A DNA stretch of 64,000 nucleotides, taken from assembly GCA_027487435.1 (NCBI GenBank), contig JAIYDP010000265.1, positions 1 through 64,000 of the forward strand. The letters run 5' to 3'. Origin of the DNA: Verrucomicrobiaceae bacterium (GTDB lineage: Bacteria; Verrucomicrobiota; Verrucomicrobiia; Verrucomicrobiales; Akkermansiaceae). Shown here in pieces: positions 7,409 to 50,253 of the stretch (within the stretch, counting starts at the first letter, position 1; every line of letters begins with the position of its first letter). A program made the position numbers and the translations under genes. The notes below the pieces were generated by a model, which did not search any database, was not told the origin of the DNA, and saw nothing but the letters and a program-made list of their open reading frames with translations.

Positions 7409-8962
7409 TTATGAGATTTTTTCTGCAACGAAGTCGCAGATGACTTTGACCATGTAGTCGATTTGCGTGCTGGTCAGGCCGGGATAGGTGCCGAGGAACA
7501 AGGTTTGGTTCATGATGCGATCCGCTTCGGGAAGTTCGCAGGAAACTCGAACCGCTGCGGGGTTGTCGCGGCGGAGTTGCACGAAGGCGGGTTGGCGAAC
7601 GAGATTGCCACCGAAGAGCATTCGATTTCCGATCTTATGTGCATCGAGATTGCGAACAAACTCCGTGCGGGTGAAAGGTGCGGATTCTTTGATGGTGATT
7701 TTGAAGCCGAACCATGAGCAATCGGTGTAGCAACCGGTATCGTCCCAGGAGAAATTCGAATCGAGAGGGGATTCGGGGTTTTCTGGTGCATGCCATGCTG
7801 TAGCGTGGGTAGGCAGAGCGAATTCCATATGTGCCTCAAGACCGTGAAGCCCGCGGCGGAGTTGCTCCCAGTTGCGCTTGCGCGCTTCAATGAAAGCCGG
7901 GAGGCGCTTCACCTGCACTCGCCCAATGGCGGCTTGAATGTCGAGCGGCTTGAGGTTGAATCCGAGGTGGCTGTAGATGTATTTGTGATCGTAGCCCTCG
8001 GGTAGTTCTCCTAATTGCCATTGGAAGCGCTTGCCGCAGGTATCGTCCTTGCCGGAGGGGCACCAACAATCGCGCCCCCAATCGCGAAAGCTTTCTGCGT
8101 ATGTTTTGAGCGGGGGTTTGCGGATGATGCTGACCGCGCCACCCTCTCCCATGGTCAGGTGGTGTGGAGGGTAAAAGGATTGGGTAGAGAGATCGCCAAA
8201 GGAACCGGTAGGTGCTGTGATCACGGAGTCATTTCCCTCGCCCGTAATTCGGATGATCGGGTGCTGGCCTTTTTCGGCGATTTTGATGAGGTGATCGAGG
8301 CCAAGAGCACGAGCTTTGCCGAGAGGTAAGGTGTAAGTGCAGCCTAAGGCATCGCAATTGTCCTCAACCAACCAAAGGTCATATTTTTGGCAGAATTCAA
8401 GAACTGTGACGAGTTCAAAAGGATTACCCAAGGCGTGGGCCATCATTACCGCTTTGGTTTTACCTGGCGAAAAGGCTGCTTCGAGTTGTGAGCAGTTAGC
8501 GTTTCCTGTTTTCACCATGGCGTCGATGAATACCGGCACAGCGCCACATTGAATGATAGGTGCTACAGTCGTGGGGAAACCCGCAGCAACGGTGATGACT
8601 TCATCGCCTGGGTTGATGCGTTTGTGGGGAGGTAACTTATGGGTAGTCAGAGCAGAAAAGGCAACAAGGTTGGCACTGGAACCTGAATTGACGAGTAGAG
8701 AATGCTTCACGCCTAGAAATGCAGCCAACTCGCTCTCCATCGCTTCGCCTTCGGGTCCTAGGGTCAACCAGAAATCGAGGGTCGAGGAGACTGCGGCTTC
8801 TACTTCATCTGGAGTGAAAACCCTTGCAGCGTAGGGAATGGTTTGGCCGACGGTGTATTCGGCTCTGGCCGGATCATCGGCAGGGAGATTTCCGCTGTGA
8901 GTGAGCCGTGAATATTCACGTGTCAGGCGGAGGATTTCTGTTTTAAGTTCGGATGGTGACAT
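7409..8962 (-). CDS. rfbH: CDP-4-dehydro-6-deoxyglucose C3-dehydratase, E1 (RfbH/DdhC type)
   Basis: This is an aspartate-aminotransferase-fold PLP enzyme. The PLP lysine is replaced by histidine in SFYPPHHLTMGEGG, the hallmark of E1 dehydratases, which bind PMP and remove the C3 hydroxyl. A cysteine-rich loop follows, RDWGRDCWCPSGKDDTCGKR, matching the [2Fe-2S] ligand region. An extra segment of about 35-40 residues lies between DNCDALGCTY and GSFGDLSTQ. The frame is open to 9001, but Met at 8962 (MSPSELKTEILRLTREY) matches known family starts and leaves 20 bp to the upstream stop, so it was chosen; the protein is then 517 residues. Family members are about 440 residues. No E3 reductase gene is visible in the window. 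Confidence 0.9.
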   Translation of the reverse strand: MSPSELKTEILRLTREYSRLTHSGNLPADDPARAEYTVGQTIPYAARVFTPDEVEAAVSSTLDFWLTLGPEGEAMESELAAFLGVKHSLLVNSGSSANLVAFSALTTHKLPPHKRINPGDEVITVAAGFPTTVAPIIQCGAVPVFIDAMVKTGNANCSQLEAAFSPGKTKAVMMAHALGNPFELVTVLEFCQKYDLWLVEDNCDALGCTYTLPLGKARALGLDHLIKIAEKGQHPIIRITGEGNDSVITAPTGSFGDLSTQSFYPPHHLTMGEGGAVSIIRKPPLKTYAESFRDWGRDCWCPSGKDDTCGKRFQWQLGELPEGYDHKYIYSHLGFNLKPLDIQAAIGRVQVKRLPAFIEARKRNWEQLRRGLHGLEAHMEFALPTHATAWHAPENPESPLDSNFSWDDTGCYTDCSWFGFKITIKESAPFTRTEFVRNLDAHKIGNRMLFGGNLVRQPAFVQLRRDNPAAVRVSCELPEADRIMNQTLFLGTYPGLTSTQIDYMVKVICDFVAEKIS

Positions 8963-45972: not shown

Positions 45973-46356
45973 TCAAAAACTCGCATCCGCCGGCGGGCGA
46001 ATGATGTCGTTCTGGTCATTCAGCAAAGCCTTGCGAGCAGCGATGGGACTCTCAGAAAGCGCGAATGACATAATCGCCACGCGTTCGCCTTTCTTGATCC
46101 GATGCGCCGCACCACCATTGATGATGATATGCCCCGTGTTCGGCGGCCCAGGTTGCACATAGGTTTCGAGACGATTCCCTGTCGTGATCGAGGCAACCAG
46201 AACTTTTTCCCCCTCCCACAGACCCACGGCTTCCATCAAATCTGTGGGGATTTCGATGCTTCCTTCATATTCCACATCTGCCGCCGTAATCATAGCGCGA
46301 TGGAGTTTCGATTTTAATAGCTGACGCAGCACGCGGTGAGGAAAGACCCTGTCCAT
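45973..46356 (-). CDS. panD: Aspartate 1-decarboxylase
   Basis: The 127-residue precursor matches PanD: LKSKLHRAMITAADVEYEGS near the N-terminus, followed by IEIPTDLMEAVGLWEGEKVL and RLETYVQPG and INGGAAHRIKKGERVAIMSF. The self-cleavage site is the Gly-Ser bond in YEGSIEI, whose Ser becomes the pyruvoyl group. The enzyme makes beta-alanine for pantothenate. The start is annotated at 46356 (MDRVFPHRVLRQLLKSK); it is slightly longer than most homologues, which begin at M-L-x-x-L-L-K-S-K. The upstream intergenic region contains the 22-bp tandem array. Confidence 0.93.
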   Translation of the reverse strand: MDRVFPHRVLRQLLKSKLHRAMITAADVEYEGSIEIPTDLMEAVGLWEGEKVLVASITTGNRLETYVQPGPPNTGHIIINGGAAHRIKKGERVAIMSFALSESPIAARKALLNDQNDIIRPPADASF

Positions 46357-47135
46357 GTCACGGTCAAGGTCATTTTTCCCTTCCGAAAGGATTTCTCACC
46401 CGAAAAATCAACAAATCCCCCTCCCATAATCCGCCACTTTCCACGATCAAATCCACCTTGCAAGCTCACCTCATCCGCAGGAAAAGCGGTAGAAAACACA
46501 TGCACGCCCCCCAAAAACATCGTACAGGCAGACCCAATCATCGTACAGGCCGAGTCGTAACATCTGTACGGCTCGACCAAAACATCTGTACAGCTCACCC
46601 ATAACAATGCATAGACCGATCAAAACATCTGTACGGGCGAACCAAAACATCTGTACGTGCAAACCAAAACATCTGTACGTGCAAACCAAAACATCTGTAC
46701 GGGCGGACCGAAACATCTGTACGAATGGATCAAAACATCTGTACGGGCCATCAAAACATCTGTAAGGGTGCATCAAAACAACTGTAAGGGTGCATCAAAA
46801 CAACTGTACGGGTGAATCGAACCATCTGTACGGATAGATCAAAACATCTGTACGGGTGAATCGAAACATCTGTACGGGTGGAACAAAACATCCGTAAACA
46901 TCGCCCGAAACATCCGGAATTCTCGATCAAAACATTCTACAAATCCCCCCAAAACCCTGCGTAAATGGACTGCAACGAGATACCGCCAGAGCATGATCGC
47001 GCCTTCATCAAAAACATAGTCGCACCGCAATTTTCCCCTTCCCAAGCCATCGAAATTTGCTACCGTTAAGGCAACAGTAGAACGGCATGCACCACCGTGC
47101 CGCTTGCTGTTTCTCAACTCAACTCCATCACCATC
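46357..47135. other. Intergenic region between panD and the divergent gene
   Basis: Apart from the 22-bp array, nothing recognisable as a gene is present. Short open frames through the array are products of its composition. Promoters for panD (minus) and the 47136 gene (plus) must lie at its edges but could not be assigned. Confidence 0.5.
46518..46963. repeat. Tandem array, about 20 units with a strict 22-bp period
   Basis: A core reading CATCTGTAC with a leading AAAA occurs about 20 times. The cores begin at 46518, 46539, 46561, 46583, 46605, 46626, 46648, 46670, 46692, 46714, 46736, 46757, 46779, 46801, 46823, 46845, 46867, 46889, 46911, 46933 and, decayed, 46955. Spacing is 22 bp, with three 21-bp steps. 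The first and last units are degenerate and the middle ones are near-identical, as in minisatellites. The period is two helical turns, so a protein bound to each unit would face one side of the DNA. It lies between divergent panD and the gene at 47136. It is not coding and not CRISPR. Confidence 0.9.
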
Positions 47136-47840
47136 ATGAACGACCTTAACATCCTCCAGTTCAACCGTGTCAGCCGAGTGCAAACCTTTGGCCGCGACCA
47201 CGCCTCCGACTTCGCCCCGGGCAGTAAAACCAGAGACTTGTTTCTCAAACTCGACCCCATCGTCACAAAACTAGAAGAATACCGTGTCGGCAAGCTCCGG
47301 CAACCCGTCGGCAAAAAAGCCTGCATTGCAGCGCTTATCGCAGACTTCAAAGACATCGCCCGCACCGCCCGCGCCATTTACCTCGATGACCCGAGCTTCC
47401 CCAAATCAGAGTATCGCACTCCCCGCACCCGCACGGAAACCCCCATCGCCACCCATGCCGATGCCCTGCTGCAACTCCTAGAAAACCAAGAAGAAGACAC
47501 CCCCGCCCAGCTCGCCGAGAAGGACGCCTTGCGCGCCAAATTCATCGCCTATGAGCTTCCCGGAGACTTCGTCGAAGACCTCCGCTCCGACCGCGATGCC
47601 CTCACCGACTGCAACAAAAACAAACACAGCGACCTAAGCGAAAGCGTAGAAGCCACCGCCGCCATCGAAGAGCTACTTGACCAAGCACAAACCGTCATCA
47701 CTCGTCTGGATGCAGCGATCAAAAACAAATACGCCCGAGTCCCCGAAAAACTCGCCGCCTGGCGCACCGCCAGCCGCACCCACCGCCCCAGCAGACCCGC
47801 CAAATCCACGCCACCAACCCCTACCCCACCCACTGCCTAA
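47136..47840 (+). CDS. Conserved-looking protein of unknown function, multi-copy family in Verrucomicrobia
   Basis: The frame opens at 47097; Met at 47136 (MNDLNILQFNRVSRVQTFGR) matches remembered homologues and is preferred, giving 234 residues. The protein is soluble and predicted helical: SDFAPGSKTRDLFLKLDPIV, KDIARTARAIYLDDPSFPKS, DALRAKFIAYELPGDFVEDL, and a four-helix-like C-terminus with TAAIEELLDQAQTVITRLDA. The tail is Pro/Thr-rich (PSRPAKSTPPTPTPPT). I recall a family with the FxxRxxF and ARTARA motifs in many environmental bacteria but know no function. The gene sits directly beside the 22-bp array. Confidence 0.65.
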   Translation: MNDLNILQFNRVSRVQTFGRDHASDFAPGSKTRDLFLKLDPIVTKLEEYRVGKLRQPVGKKACIAALIADFKDIARTARAIYLDDPSFPKSEYRTPRTRTETPIATHADALLQLLENQEEDTPAQLAEKDALRAKFIAYELPGDFVEDLRSDRDALTDCNKNKHSDLSESVEATAAIEELLDQAQTVITRLDAAIKNKYARVPEKLAAWRTASRTHRPSRPAKSTPPTPTPPTA

Positions 47841-47865
47841 GCGCTGTAACCCCATCCCCCCTCAC

Positions 47866-47902
47866 AATCCCGACCGATCCACCATCGGTCGGGATTTTTT
47901 CT
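47866..47902 (+). terminator. Rho-independent terminator
   Basis: A 13-bp stem, AATCCCGACCGAT at 47866-47878 pairing with ATCGGTCGGGATT at 47884-47896, has a 5-base loop and is followed by a T-run. It lies 26 bp past the stop of the 47136 gene. Confidence 0.85.
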
Positions 47903-48361
47903 TTCGCGATCATAAAAAAAGGAATCCGCAAGTCCAACGAACAATCGACAGCATGTTGCGGCACCAACCACATCTCCCGTGGATCTGCCCCGAATGCTGC
48001 TATCGCACCCAGATATCCAAAATTTTTTATCTTTCCAAAGGCGCATAAAGTCGCTAAGAACTGTTCATAAACACAGCGCACATGACAAATCACGTGAATT
48101 CTCTCCATAACATGTTCGCCACCTTCCTCAAAACCACCACGACAGTCAAAAGCATCAATGTCAAAACCACCAAGCTCTACAACCACCGAAACACTCCCAG
48201 CACCAACAAAGACAGCGGCATCACCAACTATGCCAACCTCTACGCCACCCAAACCATGAACAACACCAAATACCTCATAGAACTCCCACTAAGAGCCTTC
48301 ACCGGCAACGTGGCAACCAACAAAATCTTGGCACGCTTGCCATTACTCAATATTTGAACTC
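47903..48361. other. Intergenic stretch, no supported gene
   Basis: Open frames exist on both strands, but they are of low complexity (Thr/Asn-rich on plus, Gly/Val-rich on minus) and mutually overlapping. No signal for an RNA gene was recognised. The stretch precedes the AT-rich TcmP pair and may contain its promoter. Confidence 0.4.
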
Positions 48362-49513
48362 ATGAGCACTTCCAAAAAAGATATTTGGCATGCCGATCCT
48401 CATACTTTGGCAAAAATAGCGATTTTGAAAAACTATTTGCGTGCTTGGTTTCCTATAGTTGGGAAATCATTTCCAGGTCCGATTTTGTATATTGATGGAT
48501 TTGCAGGACCAGGCTATTATCTCAATAGTGAAGAGGGTTCTCCGGTAGCAGCTTATGAAACAATAAAAAATATATATTTACGCGACGGCGATAAAATTAG
48601 ATCAAACTGCAATCTTGTTTTTATAGAAAAAGAAAAAAAGCTCTTTGAAAAATTAAATGAAACTATCGGAGCTAAGAAAAAATATCCTAGAATTGATATT
48701 CATTTGATGAATGCTTCATTTGATGAAGCTATGTATAATTTAATTGAATCAACTAAATATGAACAATCATTTCACAATGCGCAGCCTCTTTTAATTTTTG
48801 CAGACCCATTCGGAGCTACTGGCGTTCCATTCGAGATAATTAAAAAATGCTTTAAATCTGAAACCACAGAATTGTTACTCAACTTCGATGCTGATGGCGT
48901 GGAACGTATACGTAAGGGCCAAAACGAGAACTGGGAACAGCAGTTAGATGAAATTTTCGGAGATCGTTCATGGGAAAGAGAAATCTCTAATAGCAGTAGT
49001 TTAACGGACGGAGCCAATAAAGCATTAAAATTGTATGAAAAAAAGCTCAAAGAACTAAGTGGATTAGATTACGTGTGGGCATTTGAGATGCGGGGAAAAA
49101 ATGATAAAATTAATTATTTTTTACTGTTTGCCTCGAAAAACATTCTTGGGATGAAAAAAATGAAAGAGGCGATGACTGCTCTTGATAAAACGGGTGATTT
49201 CACTTTTTCTGACGCACACTACAACCAACTTAATCTATTTGATAAAAATAGTTATATGGATTACGCAAATCATCTGCACGAATATTTCAGAGGTCAACAT
49301 GCAGACATGTTTACTATCGAAAAATTCGTATTATGTAACACTCCTTACACCTCATGCAAGACGCTGTTGCAACAGCTTAGTCGACGTGAACTTGTTAAAG
49401 TGCATCCAAAAAGTGGATTTACTCTGATGGCACACTCTTTTCCTGAAGAAAAAATTCAATCAGTTGAATTTTTGATTAAACAAAGTAGCTTTGAACAACA
49501 GACCTTATTTTAA
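48362..49513 (+). CDS. tcmP: Three-Cys-motif partner protein TcmP
   Basis: The 383-residue protein begins MSTSKKDIWHADPHTLAKIA and has the family signature near residue 43, ILYIDGFAGPGYYLNSEEGS, which resembles the SAM-binding motif of Rossmann methyltransferases. A second motif, LLIFADPFGATGVPFEII near residue 140, resembles the catalytic D-P-F region. TcmP proteins are predicted methyltransferase-like partners of a three-cysteine protein. The gene is much richer in A and T than its neighbours, suggesting acquisition by transfer. It ends 2 bp before the DUF5131 gene. Confidence 0.88.
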   Translation: MSTSKKDIWHADPHTLAKIAILKNYLRAWFPIVGKSFPGPILYIDGFAGPGYYLNSEEGSPVAAYETIKNIYLRDGDKIRSNCNLVFIEKEKKLFEKLNETIGAKKKYPRIDIHLMNASFDEAMYNLIESTKYEQSFHNAQPLLIFADPFGATGVPFEIIKKCFKSETTELLLNFDADGVERIRKGQNENWEQQLDEIFGDRSWEREISNSSSLTDGANKALKLYEKKLKELSGLDYVWAFEMRGKNDKINYFLLFASKNILGMKKMKEAMTALDKTGDFTFSDAHYNQLNLFDKNSYMDYANHLHEYFRGQHADMFTIEKFVLCNTPYTSCKTLLQQLSRRELVKVHPKSGFTLMAHSFPEEKIQSVEFLIKQSSFEQQTLF

Positions 49514-49515
49514 TT

Positions 49516-50253
49516 ATGGCCACTAGCTCAATCGAATGGACTGAACTCACTTGGAACCCAACGACCGGATGCGACAAAGTTTCCGCTGGTTGCAAGTTCT
49601 GTTACGCGGAAATTATGTCACGTCGTCTCAAGGCGATGGGTGTAGAAAAATACAAAGATGGATTCAAAGTGCGCGAGCACGAGGCAGCTCTTATGATTCC
49701 CTATTCATGGAAAAAACCGGCCATGGTTTTTGTCAACTCCATGAGCGATTTATTTCACAAAGATGTGAGCTTGGAATTTATCCAAAAAGTGTTTGCCGTC
49801 ATGAACGCAAACCCCCATCTGATTTTCCAAGTGCTTACCAAGCGCTCTGAGCGATTGGCTGAAATCCATCCCCAGCTTCAATGGACGCAAAACATCTGGA
49901 TGGGCGTGAGTGTCGAGGACGAGCGAGTGATTCATCGCATAGATGACCTCAGGAAAGCTCCTGCTGCAGTTCGATTTTTATCTTGTGAACCATTGATTGG
50001 ACCATTGAAAAAACTAAAGCTGAAAGGCATCGATTGGGTAATTGTCGGCGGCGAAAGCGGGGCGAACCCACGTCCGATGAAAGAGGAATGGGCCACATCG
50101 ATCCGCGATCAATGTGAAAAGCACGATGTCGCATTCTTTTTCAAACAATGGGGCGGTCGTAATAAAAAAGCCGCTGGTAGAGTGTTGGATGGAGAATACT
50201 ACGATGAATTCCCCACGCCAAATTCGAAACGTTTCACTTGCGTCACACGTTGA
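49516..50253 (+). CDS. Three-Cys-motif DUF5131 (phage Gp37/Gp68-like) protein
   Basis: The protein has 245 residues and starts MATSSIEWTELTWNPTTGCD. The cysteine motif TGCDKVSAGCKFCYAE (C-x5-C-x2-C) is radical-SAM-like and is the three-Cys motif that gives its partner a name. Other conserved stretches are MVFVNSMSDLFHKDV, FQVLTKRSERL, WMGVSVEDE, RFLSCEPLIGPL and VIVGGESGANPRPM. Homologues occur in phages and in mobile islands. It is directly coupled to tcmP. A nucleic-acid or nucleotide modification role is plausible but unproven. Confidence 0.88.
   Translation: MATSSIEWTELTWNPTTGCDKVSAGCKFCYAEIMSRRLKAMGVEKYKDGFKVREHEAALMIPYSWKKPAMVFVNSMSDLFHKDVSLEFIQKVFAVMNANPHLIFQVLTKRSERLAEIHPQLQWTQNIWMGVSVEDERVIHRIDDLRKAPAAVRFLSCEPLIGPLKKLKLKGIDWVIVGGESGANPRPMKEEWATSIRDQCEKHDVAFFFKQWGGRNKKAAGRVLDGEYYDEFPTPNSKRFTCVTR

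Follow-up and report, generated by a model that had tools for sequence, protein, structure and literature searches.

The array and the genes around it

The window, the whole 64-kb stretch of DNA analysed here, carries a tandem array between two divergent genes, as a first-pass annotation of the sequence had described: panD on its left (45973–46356, minus strand; Asp_decarbox, E 8e-33) and a gene encoding a 234-aa protein on its right (plus strand). Contigs are referred to as genome:contig (Gn:Cn), with G000 being the window's own genome, and loci as Ln. The array, the gene and the features associated with them are as follows.

46518–46954, plus strand: tandem array of 20 units of 21–22 bp, with a consensus near ATCAAAACATCTGTACGGGTGA; the end at 46954 is approximate
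46955–47135, plus strand: spacer between array and gene, in the part of the cassette common with paralogue G000:C254 (homology over 46931–47916)
47083–47102, plus strand: hairpin CGGCATG-CACCAC-CGTGCCG before the start codon
47136–47840, plus strand: gene for a 234-aa protein, all-helical by model, with a basic segment and a proline-rich end; it belongs to a multi-copy family that matches no database family
47866–47896, plus strand: intrinsic-terminator-like stem of 13 pairs after the gene, inside the shared cassette
48062–48107, plus strand: 46-bp block, 91% identical to a stretch downstream of the paralogue

Tandem Repeats Finder (TRF) called the array at 46559–46896 with a period of 22 and 15.5 copies, with wider rows starting from 46514, and this single array lies behind all five TRF rows in the 64 kb. 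Read unit by unit, the unit near 46605 is degenerate and the edge units are decayed; the spacing of 21–22 bp bears out the nearly constant 22-bp spacing and decayed edges that had been noted first. The accompanying statement that the core recurs about 20 times is correct for the 21–22-bp unit, of which there are 20, but not for the exact core 9-mer, CATCTGTAC, which is present in exact copies in 11 of the 20 units. With one mismatch allowed, CATCTGTAC has 18 matches in the window, of which the array contains 13; the expectation for the whole window is 8.1 matches, and the maximum in 100 shuffles is 17. A CRISPR array was ruled out, as the units abut without unique spacers between them.

The first-pass annotation had also considered the array as a feature of panD or as a replication origin, to be checked by GC skew. 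The panD loci of eight genus mates, with up to about 1.5 kb read on each side, have no such array, and the partner of the array is the family of the 234-aa gene. In G005 the left side of the panD neighbourhood is common with the window, the right side differs and the array is absent. GC skew does change sign near the region, but it also does so at several other places in the window, so it lends an origin no support. The array is real; it is neither a panD feature nor a lone minisatellite, and it belongs with the gene on its right.

The gene family and its protein

By BLASTP the window gene and a gene from G005 seem unrelated, but their families are homologous by profile comparison (hhalign E 8e-11 over 211 columns). 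Each of the two queries matches five of the ten genus genomes and both together match six. Family 1 has 15 matches and family 2 has 12, giving 27 copies including the queries, several of which are fragments. A profile search added a 28th copy, G000:C40 (L297:5156–6400), which has an array upstream and whose gene frame is broken near residue 177 by about 215 bp.

No fitting family was found in Pfam (eight proteins), NCBIfam (seven), PHROG (five) or PADLOC (five). The best family match was to ZorA, along a coiled-coil stretch of the window protein (E 0.004; PADLOC, five proteins); this stretch aside, none of the five matched a PADLOC model and a known anti-phage defence gene was discounted. A ParB-like PHROG match (E 0.07 over 60 residues) was within noise and was likewise rejected. 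The AlphaFold model of the window protein is all-helical, with nine helices and no strands (pLDDT 83, pTM 0.49), and no known DNA-binding fold was matched for the family protein. Net charge is negative in 16 of 20 family proteins, and their last 45 residues are positive in 18 of the 20, at +1.6 or more in 15.

Arrays lie upstream of family genes

An upstream array was scored when autocorrelation similarity was 0.6 or more at 21 or 22 bp, or at double these periods (42, 44), within 1 kb upstream of the gene. Among the 24 of 27 family copies with at least 600 bp upstream, 18 have such an array, compared with none of 21 downstream flanks and none of 60 ordinary kilobases of the window. Discounting three copies that had been reached through arrays (G005:C148, G005:C161 and the window itself), the count is 15 of 21. 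The 18 include the decayed gene G005:C135 and the partial copies G005:C161 and G008:C71. The six copies under threshold are G005:C144 and G005:C46, which form a subfamily of their own in the tree described below, G002:C42, the contig-end fragments G008:C61 and G008:C55, and G000:C403, whose array is weak (0.56).

TRF was also run on 320 kb of genus DNA (loci picked by protein, the window and eight panD loci) and called 18 arrays. Fifteen of them stand no more than 511 bp upstream of a family gene, and a 16th, at G005:C225 (L276), precedes the re-assigned start of the gene there. The remaining two are a 63-bp repeat inside a contig-end fragment and an array 2.2 kb upstream of G005:C46; the latter has a 21-bp period (L263:9702–9933), and the gene belongs to a subfamily that is otherwise without arrays. 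Arrays upstream of family genes stand 23–593 bp from the start codon, and copy number per array runs from about 3 to 20. The initial description of an iteron-like array, at two-helical-turn spacing and beside a multi-copy undescribed family, is upheld.

Period and unit sequence follow the protein

The period is 22 bp in the window, in its 81%-identical paralogue C254a, in G007:C3 and in the partial copy G008:C71, and 21 bp in every other array beside a family gene. A maximum-likelihood tree was built from 24 copies, without four fragments and with G008:C71 as a long, half-filled row; in it the four 22-bp copies fall into a single clade, with support of 97/95 and recovery in 98% of 200 bootstrap trees. 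The period changes once on the tree, and none of 500 label shuffles gave a count as low.

Unit sequences are locus-specific, yet similar units go with similar proteins (Mantel r 0.40, 0 of 5000 permutations; computed on 19 copies after removal of one decayed copy). Unit scores taken on the opposite strand show a weaker correlation of the same kind (r 0.23, 11 of 5000), and in the 14 pairs that are more than 50% identical the same-strand unit score is 17.6 versus 13.8 for the opposite strand. The pair G000:C403 and G005:C62 is a counter-case, with the better unit fit on the opposite strand. G006:C19 and G008:C16 have the unit CCTGGTACGACC in common, and the units of the window and C254a align as GGATCAAAACATCTGTAC and GAATCAAATCAT-TGTGC. 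The search of genome and relatives suggested in the first-pass annotation did return further arrays with related units, but the unit sequence itself differs by locus. Because it does so while period and position are kept, a lack of conserved units in relatives would not refute a function.

Conserved unit positions tend to fall together within a 10-bp block (Fisher p 0.0005 across 13 arrays, with relatives counted as independent); taken singly, three of the 13 arrays fall below 0.02 and supply most of the signal, and seven lie above 0.18. Folded as RNA, 12 consensus units gave z scores from −1.8 to 1.4 with no consistent sign on either strand, the lowest belonging to the window's own unit on the gene strand.

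Array and gene form a cassette

Together the array and the gene make up a single cassette some 1.6 kb long. Between the window copy and C254a identity is 82% over 46931–47916 and 91% over 48062–48107, and it does not extend past those stretches in the compared regions of 8 and 12 kb; the paralogues have array, spacer, gene and terminator in common but not their flanks. By eye, a GGCATG/CATGCC hairpin occupies the same place in G000:C254 (L247) as the hairpin in the window. The block at 48062–48107 is, from this comparison, probably the outer edge of the cassette. C23, G006:C19 and G008:C16, with proteins 58–79% identical, have no common neighbours in the 12-kb regions compared, and at G005:C42 an array stands next to a decayed gene fragment. 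Judging by sequence, cassettes recur at different places, duplicate and decay, since the flanks of paralogues differ, the gene at G005:C42 has decayed and the G005 panD region has no array. None of the ORFs inspected was recognisable as a transposase.

A computational search with a unit pair pattern gave 22 matches in the window's own genome versus none for a reversed control. The matches fall in the window, in C193, C61 and C276, and right where contig C356 ends; a 23-bp array at another position in that contig was found separately. In the flanks read, neither tblastn nor the profile detected a family gene beside four of the G000 arrays (C193, C61, C276 and C356 near 36.1 kb). The array in C193 has a 22-bp period and is built of the window's unit (73% identical, E 5e-32); it stands alone at L011:4628–4900, has a similar left edge, and may be a second target of the window protein. 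At L010:5661–5855 contig C356 breaks off inside a 21-bp array. The same pattern found three 21-bp arrays in G005 (C42, C148 and C161), two of which immediately precede a gene whose product is about 231 aa long; one of these genes is cut by the contig end. By analogy with this layout a family gene would be expected just past the break in C356. The G000 assembly comprises 9.39 Mb in 506 contigs (82% complete, 0.6% contamination), and those of its nine genus mates 2.9–4.4 Mb.

Homologues, DUF6261 and a phage contig

Outside the ten genus genomes the family is sparse: the family-1 profile has matches in five of 387 phylum genomes, G000 and G008 among these, and in three of 37 genomes of other groups, two Bacteroidota and one Chitinispirillaceae. 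No clear upstream array was seen at nine homologue loci outside the genus, several of them broken. Some 120 bp upstream at the Chitinispirillaceae locus (L305), a weak 21-bp periodicity reaches 0.49, where shuffles give no more than 0.45; this is possibly a decayed array. At a Bacteroidota locus (L304) a weak downstream signal of 0.55 at 21 bp exceeds the shuffle maximum of 0.50, and one broken copy in G119 has a 52-bp triple repeat downstream.

DUF6261 is a Bacteroidota family of a size similar to that of the window protein. The family (PF19775) gave 12 matches in six of 296 genomes, and the flanks of ten loci were judged (L317 and L318 left out). Strong 41–42-bp arrays with similarity of 0.69–0.96 are present upstream at four of the ten (L307, L308, L313 and L315), each with locus-specific units. 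L312 (0.57, shuffles at most 0.56) and L316 (0.53, at most 0.50) are marginal, and the other four do not rise above their shuffles. A lag of 41 or 42 scores best at eight of the ten loci, or at nine of ten with the L309 start assumed, and no periodicity of 0.5 or more was found in the downstream flanks. The DUF6261 model is all-helical with nine helices (pLDDT 86). The two families show no detectable homology (hhalign E 0.24 and 0.48; no DUF6261 match among eight family proteins).

Two further loci, found via the array pattern, each have a 104-aa, helical-looking gene directly beside an array: L085, from Prevotellaceae, and L224, a phage contig that also carries portal, head and methyltransferase genes. 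In L224 the 21-bp-like array and then the 104-aa gene (8186–8688) lie between a regulator and a DNA methyltransferase. The two proteins are 34% identical to each other and match a joint profile with E 0.04 (L085, weak) and 2e-5 (L224). Another contig from the same metagenome as L224 contains a 21-bp array (L225), and a Bacteroidota contig (L117:5359–5741) has about 19 units of 21 bp between two unrelated genes, with no recognised family gene.

Comparison with known systems and alternative explanations

In iteron–Rep loci, direct repeats lie upstream of one gene. The window system resembles them, and the Rep_3 type in particular, in its direct repeats near 20 bp, two helical turns apart, just upstream of one gene, and in a locus-specific repeat paired with a protein. 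Unlike them it is chromosomal and present several times per genome, and where Rep_3 proteins are winged-helix its protein is all-helical by model. A relic of an iteron-type replication origin from an integrated plasmid would explain why 21–22-bp direct repeats precede one ~230-aa gene, and is nevertheless very improbable: no Rep match was found in Pfam (eight proteins) or NCBIfam (seven) at E up to 1, the protein model has no beta strands, neither the window protein nor a family-1 member has a plasmid match, and ten neighbouring ORFs scanned with Pfam carry no plasmid functions. Type III toxin–antitoxin systems consist of a repeat RNA and a toxin that is a beta-fold ribonuclease. They too have a repeat array directly upstream of one gene, and an array transcribed into such a repeat RNA would fit the hairpin ahead of the gene, the same strand orientation in most close relatives and a window unit that folds somewhat better than its shuffles (z −1.8, gene strand). 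This explanation is improbable given that the 12 units have no consistent fold on either strand, no Rfam match comes near threshold and the protein model is all-helical. In ParMRC partition loci the parC repeats are bound by ParR. PMC9426499 reports that ParR binds the parC of its own family and not that of another, and ParMRC resembles the window system in these cognate protein–array families. It differs in that the ten window ORFs scanned by Pfam include no ParM-like gene, that the window protein is about 230 aa and all-helical by model, with no match to the ribbon-helix-helix ParR family, and that several private pairs occupy one chromosome. DUF6261 is alike in its helical protein of about 240 aa and strong upstream arrays, and unlike in its lack of detectable homology and its doubled period. 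By analogy, there is perhaps an even chance that the system operates in the manner of iterons and Rep or of parC and ParR; those defining protein features of the two systems that were tested are absent from it.

Neutral minisatellites might arise easily here by slippage and be linked to the gene by hitchhiking in a duplicated segment. Homogenised units within arrays, decayed edges, copy numbers of about 3 to 20 and the four arrays without a family gene are all in keeping with this, but period, position and gene stay constant across arrays whose units differ, none of the 21 downstream flanks has an array, and DUF6261, with no detectable homology to the family, has 41–42-bp arrays in the equivalent position at 4 of 10 loci. 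A plain minisatellite, one of the first suggestions for the window array, leaves the gene linkage unexplained; these arrays do have a fixed genomic partner, the four gene-less ones being the exceptions, and we consider neutral slippage distinctly unlikely. Alternatively, the array could be read by a host factor, or act via DNA shape, as promoter-proximal control, with the job of the gene product unrelated. The position of arrays 23–593 bp upstream of the start codon and the negative charge of 16 of 20 proteins speak for it. A single host factor should, however, keep a single unit sequence, and the units differ by locus and track the protein, which leaves this explanation rather unlikely.

A protein that may read its own array

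The arrays are linked to the gene family, keep their period and position, diverge in unit sequence alongside the protein and recur in unrelated neighbourhoods. From the co-divergence, the fixed period and the private units we infer that the protein may read its own array, the two forming a DNA-binding system that is cooperative, phased by the helix and carried on a relocating cassette; on sequence evidence we regard this proposal as evenly balanced. The helical protein, or an assembly nucleated by it, would recognise the roughly 10-bp conserved half of each unit, and sites every two helical turns would place the copies on one face of the DNA. The bound copies would assemble cooperatively into a nucleoprotein array a short way upstream of where the cassette's gene starts, each cassette being a private protein–array pair as iterons are with Rep or parC with ParR. 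The likeliest direct effect would be autoregulation and self-recognition of the cassette, and the whole would act as accessory or selfish elements do, spreading, duplicating and decaying.

Several observations count against a protein that reads its array: the mostly negative net charge, the lack of a recognised DNA-binding fold, the six copies under threshold, the homologues outside the genus without a clear array and the four gene-less arrays. The case is weakened also by the non-independent arrays in the 10-bp-block test, the opposite-strand correlation and the RNA fold of the window unit.

Taken together, the data suggest that bacterial chromosomes carry a previously unrecognised kind of element in which a protein is paired with an array that it binds. 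A broader formulation, which we hold slightly short of evenly balanced, is an undescribed class of two-part element in the chromosomes of Verrucomicrobiota and Bacteroidota and in a phage: a helical protein from one of several families with a private tandem array, its period locked to two or four helical turns, where each copy would write and read its own DNA address and the pair would spread as a cassette without a recognisable transposase. In the literature searched we found no described kind of element that covers an array-plus-gene cassette, although descriptions we have not seen may exist. If the protein reads the array, one genome would contain several orthogonal protein–DNA array pairs in which specificity and repeat sequence co-evolve, a natural laboratory for DNA recognition and possibly a toolkit, and there would be a first functional handle on DUF6261 and on the unnamed multi-copy family. 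Even without binding, a gene family drags along an array of constant period and ever-changing sequence, which raises the question of what holds the period when the sequence is free.

Genes beside the cassettes

To the right of the cassette, at 48362–50253, the window has a TcmP gene (TIGR04474) and, after it, a DUF5131 gene whose resemblance to radical SAM mobile pair protein A falls short of the cut-off for that protein. A related pair of neighbouring genes (27–33% identical) occurs beside cassettes of different genomes, at L263:8027–9320 and L297:6482–7754; the first is PIN-domain-like by eye.
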